DNA from: Thiotrichaceae bacterium
GTDB taxonomy: Bacteria; Pseudomonadota; Gammaproteobacteria; Beggiatoales; Beggiatoaceae
Direction of reading: 5' to 3'
DNA: 32,396 nt
NCBI GenBank assembly: GCA_029939505.1
Contig: JAOZSV010000027.1
Span: forward strand, 1 to 32,396
Positions 6,272 to 31,655 of the stretch are shown here, piece by piece (position 1 is the first letter of the stretch; every line of letters begins with the position of its first letter). The notes under the pieces are model-generated. The model had not been told where the DNA came from and ran no database searches. It was given only the letters and a program-made list of their open reading frames with translations. The translations under genes and the position numbers were made by a program.

Positions 6272-6742
6272 ATGCCAAGAAGAAGAATTATTGCAAAGCG
6301 AACCATTTTGCCCGATCCAAAGTATGGAGATGAAACCGTCGCAAAATTCATCAATATGCTCATGAAAAATGGCAAAAAGTCTGTGGCGGAACGTATCGTC
6401 TATGGTGCCTTGGATCGTGTTGCACAAAAAACAAAGGTTGAAGCTTTGGATGTTTTTGGCAAAGCCTTAGATCATGTTCGCCCAGTAGTAGAAGTCAAAT
6501 CTCGGCGAGTGGGCGGTTCAACTTATCAAGTACCCATAGAAGTCCGCCCTGCTCGTCGAACAACATTAGCCATGCGCTGGCTTGTCGATTCGGCTCGAAA
6601 ACGGGGTGAAAAAACGATGGGACTGCGTTTGGCTGGTGAAATTCTTGATGCGAACGAAAAAAAGGGAACAGCGATTAAAAAACGTGAAGATGTGCATCGT
6701 ATGGCCGAAGCCAACAAAGCATTTTCACATTTCCGCTGGTGA
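6272..6742 (+). CDS. rpsG: 30S ribosomal protein S7
   Basis: 156 residues, the normal length. S7 nucleates assembly of the 3' domain of 16S rRNA and contacts E-site tRNA. The N-terminal MPRRR and the segment [20 protein letters not shown] are diagnostic. It follows rpsL by 37 nt. In E. coli S7 represses the str operon post-transcriptionally by binding the rpsL-rpsG intercistronic RNA; this short spacer contains no obvious copy of that structure. A heptamer array starts 10 nt after its stop. Confidence 0.98.
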
Positions 6743-6752
6743 TCTTCAGTGA

Positions 6753-6808
6753 TCAGTTATCAATGATCAGTTATCAATGATCAATGATCATTGCTCACTG
6801 GTCACTAA
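6753..6808. repeat. Tandem heptamer array after rpsG, eight units
   Basis: Eight contiguous 7-nt units: TCAGTTA, TCAATGA, TCAGTTA, TCAATGA, TCAATGA, TCATTGC, TCACTGG, TCACTAA. The consensus is TCAnTnA. TCAGTTA is the exact reverse complement of TAACTGA, the heptamer found before fusA about 100 nt further on, so the two arrays face each other across the palindrome at 6831-6871 and could pair in the mRNA. Confidence 0.88.
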
Positions 6809-6830
6809 TAAAGGGTTTTTGACAACTAAT

Positions 6831-6871
6831 TTAGAGGCTTACCGTTTTTCTTCAAAACGGTAAGCCTCTAA
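6831..6871. repeat. Short palindrome, GAGGCTTACCG type
   Basis: The perfect arms TTAGAGGCTTACCG and CGGTAAGCCTCTAA enclose the T-run, CTTC, A-run core. It lies in the rpsG-fusA spacer. The outer base pairs read TTAGAGG instead of TTCGAGG, with the matching change on the other side. Confidence 0.9.
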
Positions 6872-6883
6872 CATATTGTGTAG

Positions 6884-6911
6884 AACTGATAACTTGATAA
6901 CTGATAACTGA
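6884..6911 (+). promoter_or_regulatory. TAACTGA direct repeats in front of fusA
   Basis: The array reads AACTGA, TAACTTGA, TAACTGA, TAACTGA. The last two are perfect tandem heptamers (6898-6911) ending 2 nt before the ATG. There is no Shine-Dalgarno sequence in the normal window; the heptamers occupy it. TAACTGA direct repeats upstream of starts are known from marine Beggiatoaceae, where binding by a post-transcriptional regulator has been proposed. Confidence 0.85.
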
Positions 6912-6913
6912 AT

Positions 6914-9016
6914 ATGGCACGTAAGACACCCATTGAGCGCTACCGTAATATTGGAATTATGGCGCATATTGATGCTGGCAAAACAACAACGACTGAACGC
7001 ATTCTCTATTACACCGGCGTTTCGCATAAAATGGGCGAAGTGCATGACGGTGCAGCCACTATGGATTGGATGGCACAAGAACAAGAACGGGGTATTACCA
7101 TTACCTCAGCAGCAACGACTTGTTTTTGGAATGGCATGGGACAACAATATCCAGAGCATCGTATCAATATTATTGATACACCAGGTCACGTTGATTTCAC
7201 CATTGAAGTTGAACGTTCATTGCGTGTACTTGATGGCGCGTGTGCCGTATTTTGTGCGGTGGGTGGAGTCGAGCCTCAATCGGAAACGGTTTGGCGACAA
7301 GCCAATAAATATGGTGTGCCTCGTCTCGCCTTCGTTAATAAAATGGATCGGGCTGGTGCAGATTTTTTGCGGGTCGTTTCCCAAATTAATAAACGTCTTG
7401 CCGTTCAGACTGCCGTTTTGCAGCTTCCTATTGGGGCAGAGGACAAATTTGAAGGCATTGTTGATCTGGTTAAGATGAAGGCCATTTATTGGGATGAGGC
7501 GACCTCTGGTGTACGTTTCTCTATAGAGGAAATTCCAGAAGCCATGCAATCTGAATGCGATAAATGGCGGGAAAATCTGGTAGAAATGGCGGCTGAAGCT
7601 AATGACACCTTAATGGAGAAATATCTTGAAGAAGGTGAATTAACTGAAGAAGAAATACGCCAGGGTATTCGTTCACGTACCTTAGCCAATGAAGTGATAC
7701 CAACTATTTGTGGTTCGGCCTTTAAAAATAAAGGTGTGCAAGCCATGTTGGATGCCGTTATTGAGTATTTACCGGCACCGACAGATGTACCGCCTGTTCG
7801 TGGTACTCTTGATGACCCACAGCAAACAGAAGCAACTCGTGCGCCAAGTGATGAGGAGCCTTTTGCCGCTTTAGCTTTTAAAGTGGCAACCGATCCCTTT
7901 GTGGGTTCTTTGACATTTTTCCGTGTTTATTCAGGGGTATTAAATTCAGGCGATTCTGTTTTTAATCCGATAAAACGGAAACGAGAACGGTTGGGCCGCA
8001 TTTTACTAATGCATGCCAATTCCCGTGAAGAAATAAGGGAAGTTCGGGCGGGTGATATTGCAGCCGTTGTTGGGTTAAAATCTGTCACCACAGGGGAAAC
8101 GCTTTGTGATAAAAACCACTTGATTACATTGGAAAAAATGGAATTTCCAACCCCTGTCATTTCTGTGGCCGTTGAGCCAAAAACGCAGGCAGATCAGGAA
8201 AAAATGGGCGTTTCACTGTCCAAACTCGCCGCTGAAGATCCGTCATTTCAGGTACGCACAGATGAAGAAACAGGGCAGACCATTATTTCTGGCATGGGTG
8301 AATTGCATTTGGATGTTCTTGTGGATCGTATGCGCCGAGAGTTTAATGTGGATGCCAATGTCGGTGCACCACAGGTGGCTTATCGAGAAACCATCCGTAA
8401 ACCTGTTGAAATCGAAGGAAAGTTCATACGTCAATCAGGTGGGCGTGGTCAATATGGGCATGTTTGGTTAAAGCTTGAACCATTAGAACCGGGTTCAGAC
8501 TATCAGTTTGTCAATAAGATCACGGGAGGAGATGTACCAAAAGAGTATATTCCAGCCGTTAACAAGGGTGTGGTCGATGCGATGCAAAATGGCGTTTTGG
8601 CCGGATATCCCGTTGTTGATGTCTCTGTCACCTTATATGATGGCTCATTCCATGAAGTTGACTCCAGTGAAATGGCATTTAAGATCGCAGGTTCTCAAGC
8701 GTTTAAAGAAGGGGCTAAAAAAGCATCGCCTGTATTGCTTGAACCTGTTATGGCAGTGGAAATCGTGACACCAGAGGATTACATGGGAGATGTCATGGGC
8801 GATTTGAATCGCCGTCGGGGTATTTTACAAGGGATGGATGAATTGCCAACAGGTAAAGTGATTCAGGCCGAAGTACCACTTGGGGAAATGTTTGGTTATG
8901 CGACGGACTTACGCTCACTAACGCAAGGACGTGCGAGTTATACCATGCAATTTGCCAAATACCATGAAGCCCCCAGTAGTATTGCTGAGGCTGTGATTAA
9001 AAAAAATCTGTCATAA
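6914..9016 (+). CDS. fusA: Elongation factor G
   Basis: 700 residues, the full length of EF-G, the GTPase that drives tRNA-mRNA translocation. G-domain motifs are present: [10 protein letters not shown] (about 17-26), the switch [10 protein letters not shown] and NKMDRAGAD. Domains II-V follow, with [11 protein letters not shown] in domain IV. The frame is intact. The start is fixed by [15 protein letters not shown], typical of the family, and comes right after the TAACTGA repeats. It is separated from rpsG by 171 nt of repeats and from tuf by 144 nt with two palindromes, unusually long spacers for a str operon. Confidence 0.98.
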
Positions 9017-9026
9017 TTGTTAATTT

Positions 9027-9069
9027 TTTCGAGGTTTAAGTTTTTTTTCAAAAAACTTAAACCTCGAAA
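9027..9069. repeat. Short palindrome, GAGGTTTAAG type
   Basis: The perfect arms TTTCGAGGTTTAAG and CTTAAACCTCGAAA surround the T-run/A-run core. It starts 10 nt after the fusA stop and may act as an mRNA 3' hairpin. Confidence 0.9.
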
Positions 9070-10720: not shown

Positions 10721-10755
10721 GTTAATGGTTAATAGTTAATGGTTAATGATTAATG
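10721..10755. repeat. Tandem heptamer array after rpsJ, five units
   Basis: Five contiguous 7-nt units: GTTAATG, GTTAATA, GTTAATG, GTTAATG, ATTAATG, beginning 2 nt after the rpsJ stop. Like the array after rpsG it lies at a gene end, but the unit differs. The rest of the spacer to 10885 contains ordinary AT-rich sequence and loose ACTGATGACTG-like words. Confidence 0.85.
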
Positions 10756-23054: not shown

Positions 23055-23072
23055 TTGAGGCTCAATTTCTGA

Positions 23073-23101
23073 TAACTTGATAATTGATAATTGATAATTG
23101 A
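23073..23101 (+). promoter_or_regulatory. Heptamer array in front of rpsD
   Basis: TAACTTGA followed by three perfect tandem TAATTGA units (23081-23101), ending 2 nt before the ATG at 23104. No Shine-Dalgarno. It is the TAATTGA counterpart of the fusA and secY leaders. Confidence 0.8.
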
Positions 23102-23103
23102 CA

Positions 23104-23724
23104 ATGGCGAGATATCTTGGCCCTAAATGTAAGTTGAGCCGTCGTGAAGGGATCGACCTTTTTTTAAAGAGTCGTACACGGGGGCTTGAATCAAAATGTA
23201 ATTTAGAAAAAAAGCCAGGGCAACATGGCGATAAGCGTCAACGTCTTTCTGACTATGCCCTGCAATTGCGTGAAAAACAAAAATTACGCCGATTTTATGG
23301 TGTTTTGGAAAAACAATTTCGTGGCTATTACCTAAAAGGCAGTCGTCAATCCGGTTCTACAGGTGAAAATTTGCTGAAATTGCTTGAATGTCGCCTGGAT
23401 AATGTGGTTTATCGCATGGGATTTGGAGTCACACGCGCTGAAGCGAGACAATTGGTAAGCCATAAAACGATTTTACTCAATGATAAGGTTGTTAATATCT
23501 CTTCGATTCAAGTTAAAGCGAATGATGTGATTAGTATCCGTGAGAAAAGCCGTAATCAATTGCGTATTAAAATGGCATTAGATACAGCAACTGAATATGG
23601 TTTTCCATCATGGGTTGATGTGGATGTGAATAAAATGCAGGGCATTTTTAAAATGGTTCCTGATCGTCAAGATTTGCCGAGTGATATTAATGAACAACTG
23701 GTTGTTGAGTTGTATTCCAAGTAA
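23104..23724 (+). CDS. rpsD: 30S ribosomal protein S4
   Basis: 206 residues, the usual length, from the ATG of [16 protein letters not shown]; a TTG two codons upstream lies inside the heptamer array and is not a likely start. S4 nucleates 30S assembly; in E. coli it represses the alpha operon. S4 RNA-binding domain around [20 protein letters not shown] and [12 protein letters not shown]. Confidence 0.97.
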
Positions 23725-25696: not shown

Positions 25697-25840
25697 TATG
25701 AACCTATCCCACTATTCAAAAATGCAGAACCATGAATAAAAATCGTTTGGTTTTTAACCAAAAAACGAGGGTTAAGAAATCCGATTTTTTCAAAAAATCG
25801 GATTTCTAAGCTCAAAAATGAATAGTGGGATAGGTTCATA
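25697..25840. mobile_element. MITE-like element A, copy 2 (144 bp)
   Basis: A 22-bp perfect inverted repeat (25697-25718, 25819-25840) starts TATGAACCTATCCCACTATT. The interior is nearly identical to 105-252, including the hairpin GAAATCCGATTTT...AAAATCGGATTTC. It differs from copy 1 by a shorter CCCAC in place of CCCGCCC, with the same change in both arms. Confidence 0.9.
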
Positions 25841-31610: not shown

Positions 31611-31655
31611 CATTCGAGGTTTGAGTTTTTTTTCAAAAAACTCAAACCTCGAATG
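31611..31655. repeat. Short palindrome, GAGGTTTGAG type
   Basis: The perfect arms CATTCGAGGTTTGAG and CTCAAACCTCGAATG. It splits another repeat: CCAAAGCTAAAG lies directly before it and GGACTCCAA directly after it, which elsewhere (30612-30633) are joined as CAAAGCTAAAGCGTTGGACTCC (in parts: CAAAGCTAAAGC, GTTGGACTCC). Confidence 0.9.

Follow-up and report, generated by a model that had tools for sequence, protein, structure and literature searches.

What role do the tandem 7-nt repeats play that flank the intergenic region between rpsG, encoding ribosomal protein S7, and fusA, encoding elongation factor G (EF-G), in a Thiotrichaceae bacterium akin to the giant sulfur bacteria and known from a 5.58-Mb draft genome (G000)? 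The locus lies on contig C203, which was analysed at its full length of 32,396 nt (hereafter the window) and compared with a family set of 42 genomes; extending the search to the order brought in no further genome. A sequence-only reading had proposed that an eight-unit heptamer array at 6753-6808 pairs in the mRNA with an array preceding fusA, as a possible switch between S7 and EF-G expression. We find that the rpsG-side array is also a palindrome, that arrays of this kind are polarised with respect to genes in two genomes, that a stem-loop recurs after rpsG, and that array leaders and Shine-Dalgarno (SD) sequences replace one another at fusA. At a confidence somewhat short of even, we put forward that the stop-side stem-loop separates the two cistrons and tunes an SD-free fusA leader, as one element of a polarised set of arrays.

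The rpsG-fusA gap spans 171 nt and contains, in order, a nine-unit heptamer array, a quasi-palindrome with a perfect hairpin core and a forward array:

6272-6742, + strand: rpsG (ribosomal protein S7), 156-aa open reading frame (ORF), stop codon at 6740-6742
6746-6808, + strand: stop-side array of nine degenerate 7-nt units, reverse sense (Tandem Repeats Finder (TRF), inverted repeat, lag-7 test, local fold)
6814-6887, + strand: extended quasi-palindrome around the central hairpin (fold)
6831-6871, + strand: perfect 18-bp hairpin, arms 6831-6848 and 6854-6871, loop 6849-6853 (inverted-repeat search)
6884-6911, + strand: start-side array AACTGAT AACTTGAT AACTGAT AACTGA, forward sense (TRF, pattern search)
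6914-9016, + strand: fusA (EF-G), 700-aa ORF, ATG 2 nt past the forward array

The stop-side array begins 3 bases past the rpsG stop codon and reads TCAGTGA, TCAGTTA, TCAATGA, TCAGTTA, TCAATGA, TCAATGA, TCATTGC, TCACTGG, TCACTAA. At lag 7, 43 of 56 positions are identical, whereas 5000 shuffles average 14.8 (sd 3.7) and never exceed 29; among all windows of 63 nt in the 424 kb sampled from G000, 0.1% reach this score. The array described by the sequence-only reading is thus real, with nine units rather than eight and a start one unit earlier. TCAGTTA, given there as the unit, occurs exactly in two of the nine (6753-6759 and 6767-6773, with TCAATGA between them), and two further units (TCATTGC and TCACTGG) depart from the suggested consensus TCAnTnA. 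The array does run in the reverse sense relative to the fusA array, but it is equally an imperfect palindrome and not a mere mirror image: its units shift into their own complement from TCAGTGA to TCACTAA, and since the 3' half complements the 5' half (arms 6748-6776 and 6778-6806, 29 nt, 83% complementary) it can form a stem-loop. The local fold (z = -4.6) predicts such a structure directly past the rpsG stop codon, and the whole gap folds at z = -9.2 against shuffles. Two or more tandem exact TAACTGA units, which define the repeat class of MacGregor 2015, are absent from the rpsG side; in the 'split' class of that account a related 7-mer may stand between units (PMC4679880), and the array is at best a split doublet of that class inside a longer degenerate array.

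The fusA-side array is the known Beggiatoaceae TAACTGA repeat. Tandem exact TAACTGA units occupy 6898-6911 (TAACTGATAACTGA), the forward array ends 2 nt upstream of the ATG, as in MacGregor-type repeats, and the last 22 nt hold no SD; a 16S search for an anti-Shine-Dalgarno check found no match in the G000 draft. Pairs of TAACTGA are present in 27 of the 42 family genomes, and a reversed control was almost without hits. At the fusA start (6892-6916 of the window), in 17 of 38 genomes compared the ATG follows a TAACTGA-type leader that lacks an SD, another 16 carry an SD but no array (14 of them with a GTG start), and none has both (Fisher 1e-6, in a test that treats related genomes as independent, which they are not). 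The SD state changes at least four times on a quick tree of rpsL, rpsG and fusA with several weak forks, which offers too few pairs on well-supported branches to test the exclusion phylogenetically. A side observation concerns G001, in which contigs C88, C93 and C243 carry exact TAACTGA arrays of at least 13 tandem units and the fusA leader is an ordinary SD.

The relation of such arrays to genes was assessed on sampled contigs of G000 (424 kb) and G028 (355 kb) with simple ORF calls. In both genomes 7-nt arrays adjoin gene edges, forward before start codons and mostly reverse after stop codons. TAACTGA-type arrays of G028 divide 27 forward to 1 reverse near starts and 2 to 13 near stops, and for the CATTCAC/GTGAATG type of G000 the ratios in co-directional gaps are 14:2 at starts and 2:13 at stops, with 8:0 in divergent gaps. 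A motif-free measure, the C-minus-G skew of all 7-nt arrays at starts versus stops, gives p = 3e-9 (G028) and p = 2e-4 (G000), with small skew in the masked background outside arrays. Start-side arrays are C-rich and poor in start codons, and stop-side arrays are G-rich and carry ATG or GTG in the sense direction: start codons per 100 nt of array in G000 number 0.7 in sense and 10.2 in antisense before starts, and 9.5 and 1.7 after stops. After stops in G028, the sense bias of start codons has a sign p = 3.5e-6, and 38 of 45 skewed stop-side arrays are G-rich in sense. Avoidance of false starts could account for one side of this rule; it does not explain the other side, or pure TAACTGA/TCAGTTA arrays, which contain no ATG or GTG either way.

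Across the family, whose rpsG orthologues are 75-99% identical, a stem-loop occupies the region after the rpsG stop codon in 16 of 38 genomes, with differing sequences: the units are TCAGTGA/TCACTGA in type, or TTGAGAAT in G039 and G040 (L048, L051), which are without a TAACTGA leader. Folding of the first 75 nt past rpsG falls below z = -3 in 14 of 37 genomes, and the same test gives 0-5 genomes at other str/S10 junctions and 7 after tuf, an operon end. One of the 14, G035, whose gap of 309 nt is free of arrays, was left out of the 16; G010, G016 and G024 do not pass the strict 75-nt test. The genus of G010, G012 and G013 has other gaps of at most 36 nt, and its rpsG-fusA gap measures 97-126 nt and includes a stem-loop. 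An exact palindrome, CAGTGATCA..TGATCACTG, was tried as a mark of the stem-loop and set aside as too strict, being found in G024 and G028 only.

These observations suggest an interpretation in which the rpsG array would be the stop-side member of a set of polarised 7-nt arrays bordering genes in some Beggiatoaceae-like genomes, where reverse arrays after stops and forward arrays before starts can make an intergenic region an inverted repeat. In the str-operon mRNA, the stem-loop past the rpsG stop codon would mark off the S7 cistron from that of EF-G. It would protect or process the message upstream of it and hold the reverse units in a fold of their own, and the forward array would act as an SD-free leader for EF-G. 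Because two partners are open to the stop-side strand, the local one and the leader, the stem-loop may also modulate fusA initiation; this would be a tuning by-product with fast turnover and not a conserved, dedicated S7/EF-G switch.

Several results weigh against this interpretation. The orientation sample amounts to about 0.4 Mb per genome, from contigs picked in part for their array hits and with simple ORFs. The TAACTGA class of G000 is mixed near stops (4 forward, 3 reverse), arrays in G039 are too few to judge by, and no reverse array follows a stop in the 30 G032 loci examined, so that only for two genomes, G000 and G028, can the two-sided orientation rule be taken as established. When arrays are called strictly, most gaps carry one at a single edge. 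The tree requires at least six changes of the stem-loop state and seven or more of the array state, and within-genus comparisons show no double-sided compensatory change in the stop-side stem.

The most serious rival holds that the arrays are neutral or selfish repeats, spread by slippage, inverted duplication and insertion and without regulatory role, their orientation reflecting the purging of upstream start codons and the geometry of inverted repeats. We regard this as quite possible, at about one chance in three, and several observations on the repeats speak for it. Dispersed repeats pervade the intergenic regions of G000 (of 240, 208 are similar to another one and 139 are self-inverted), and a whole 7-nt unit of the locus is missing in G033, whose rpsG is 98.5% identical. 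The central hairpin, which the sequence-only reading did not mention and which sits between the two arrays, is one member of a family of interspersed palindromes of the type TTCGAGGCTAAAGTTTTTT-loop-complement, with related copies at 9027-9069 and 31611-31655 of the window, in other gaps and elsewhere in the genome; 424 kb of G000 hold 92 perfect hairpins of this GAGGY type. Unrelated palindromic elements in other gaps are likewise bracketed by reverse and forward arrays. Alignment of the quasi-palindrome between G000 and G033 reveals five compensatory pairs and no broken one, four in the hairpin and one in the extended stem (6828-6874, A-T to G-C in G033); each of three processes could account for them on its own: exchange for another copy, templated repair, or selection. 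On its own, however, the neutral account leaves unexplained the reverse preference after stops (the 38 of 45 in G028), the post-rpsG stem-loop in genomes with otherwise short gaps (G010, G012 and G013) and the exclusion of array and SD at fusA. An explanation by an inherited inverted-repeat element and nothing else was rejected: strict arrays do not co-occur at the two edges of a gap above chance (Fisher p 0.18 and 0.71). Those gaps that have both stop- and start-side arrays (one in G000, three in G028) carry complementary units.

As separate observations on mobile-type elements, one resembling a miniature inverted-repeat transposable element (MITE) lies at 25697-25840 of the window, with inverted ends ATGAACCTATCCCACTATTC ... 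GAATAGTGGGATAGGTTCAT, and a related MITE-like copy is found on contig C93 at about 46826-47030, between reverse and forward heptamer arrays.

A broader proposal would see the arrays of Beggiatoaceae-type genomes as punctuation at gene boundaries, in which the sequence of the unit varies and its polarity is constant, and which would provide post-stop stem-loops and SD replacement read by a dedicated RNA-binding factor or the ribosome; we consider it unlikely, at roughly one chance in five.

We also consider unlikely the dedicated switch, in which the rpsG array hides the EF-G start and terminating ribosomes or a factor open it, coupling S7 to EF-G. The complementarity on which it was founded is borne out (22-nt arms 6742-6763 and 6894-6915, 91%), and pairing in the mRNA is predicted: the minimum-energy fold joins the fusA leader to the rpsG array, with which the leader is paired at a probability of 0.62, and opening the leader would cost 11 kcal/mol. 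The same strand also folds locally, however, giving two mutually exclusive predicted pairings that involve the leader, and the local competitor would be transcribed first. What the predicted fold sequesters is the leader array, and not the AUG itself, which sits unpaired in a loop. Blocking the first 12 nt past the stop codon, as a terminating ribosome might, raises the predicted openness of the leader in G000 from 0.22 to 0.46, but lowers that of the AUG from 0.40 to 0.15.

Specificity of the long-range pairing was evaluated with one genome from each of nine genera, own against foreign leaders, over several windows and with uncorrected p values. For the first 30-50 nt past the rpsG stop, pairing with the fusA leader of the same genome is favoured over pairing with foreign leaders (p ~0.001-0.04), and the preference is weaker at other lengths (25 nt, p 0.035-0.24; 65 nt, p 0.004-0.054); an earlier test with a 65-nt window and a 30-nt leader gave p = 0.055, which counts against a dedicated device. 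The same kind of comparison favours the local stem-loop: within the stop-side region, the 5' strand pairs better with the 3' strand that follows it than with those of other genomes (p 0.001-0.025 at 30-50 nt; 0.001-0.06 across windows). These fixed windows were used because an arm-exchange test on self-selected hairpins (p < 1e-4) is biased, its arms having been chosen by their own folding, and was set aside. Own pairs thus prevail in most windows, as a switch would predict, and the models suggest a long-range pairing that is somewhat locus-specific; such gap-specific pairing could also stem, without function, from arrays that share one unit family.

Conservation tells against the switch. G032, which belongs to the genus of the window, and G028 retain the forward array as a perfect TAACTGA leader and lack the rpsG-side array, so that a dedicated S7/EF-G switch is not conserved; it is the missing partner in a same-genus genome that lowers our estimate. 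The sequence-only reading had named the absence of one array in close relatives with normal regulation as what would refute the switch, and the absence in these genomes comes close to that, regulation there aside. Even between the near-identical neighbours G000 and G033, the predicted cost of opening the leader falls from 11 to 4.5 kcal/mol.

A relocated ribosomal-protein site, with S7 or another ribosomal protein binding the stem-loop and feeding back on fusA, appears very improbable. In Escherichia coli S7 binds in the rpsL-rpsG gap; that gap is shorter than 45 nt in 23 of 36 genomes here, and the stem-loop does recur specifically after rpsG, but its sequences differ between genera, with no conserved sequence core established. 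An intrinsic terminator or attenuator between rpsG and fusA is just as improbable and was rejected: the strong stem-loop just past a stop codon would suit it, but it lies inside the order rpsL-rpsG-fusA-tuf, is followed by AATAAAGGGTTTTTG with no direct U tract (none follows the stems of the relatives inspected either), and in an Rfam search gave weak hits far below gathering scores and no family at that score.

Beyond fusA, the gene order (from ORFs, with names from protein sequences) continues from tuf into the S10-spc-alpha cluster, in which two further arrays abut genes:

10721-10755, + strand: stop-side array of unit GTTAATG, 2 nt past the rpsJ stop codon (TRF)
23070-23105, + strand: start-side array of unit TGATAAT, abutting the rpsD start (TRF)

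The GTTAATG array adds another unit family that, like the arrays following other stops, runs in reverse; folding predicts that its start pairs further along the rpsJ-rplC gap.

Among known systems, repetitive extragenic palindromic (REP) sequences and MITEs resemble the hairpin at 6831-6871, a high-copy intergenic palindrome; the heptamer arrays belong to neither class. The REP of E. coli malE-malF forms an intercistronic stem-loop that stabilises the upstream mRNA. The rpsG structure shares with stem-loops of that type a position just past a stop codon inside an operon, and differs in being built of heptamers and complementary to the leader of the next gene. The resemblance to cyanobacterial short tandemly repeated repetitive (STRR) sequences noted by the sequence-only reading extends only to the 7-nt tandem period and the mostly intergenic location; the Beggiatoaceae TAACTGA class is the better match (PMC4679880). 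Of the intergenic sets sampled there from Microcystis aeruginosa, only 6 of 22 face a start codon (PMC4679880), against a strong bias in the genomes sampled here.

The closest relatives are the TAACTGA direct repeats of giant sulfur bacteria, whose position before genes has been a puzzle since 2015. According to MacGregor 2015, the BOGUAY genome holds 169 sets, mostly forward, just upstream of start codons and usually without an SD, preceding fusA, rplC and rpsD among others, and 12 of 170 sets are counted as 'toward stop codon'; a translational role was proposed for them, without experimental test in the paper, and proteins of the S1, Csp and CsrA families were suggested as binders (PMC4679880). 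The window has such or related arrays before the same three genes, and differs in an rpsG-side array that is degenerate, post-stop, reverse and palindromic. The two-sided rule, the other polarised unit families and the stop-side stem-loops do not figure in the sections of that account consulted here (PMC4679880), and the rule for several unit types of 7-nt arrays, in two sampled genomes, is new. Judged from sequence, the set of arrays looks like an uncharacterised punctuation between genes; the reverse post-stop class, a polarity that extends across unit sequences and the SD/array exclusion at fusA make a repeat-based translation signal testable at one essential operon.
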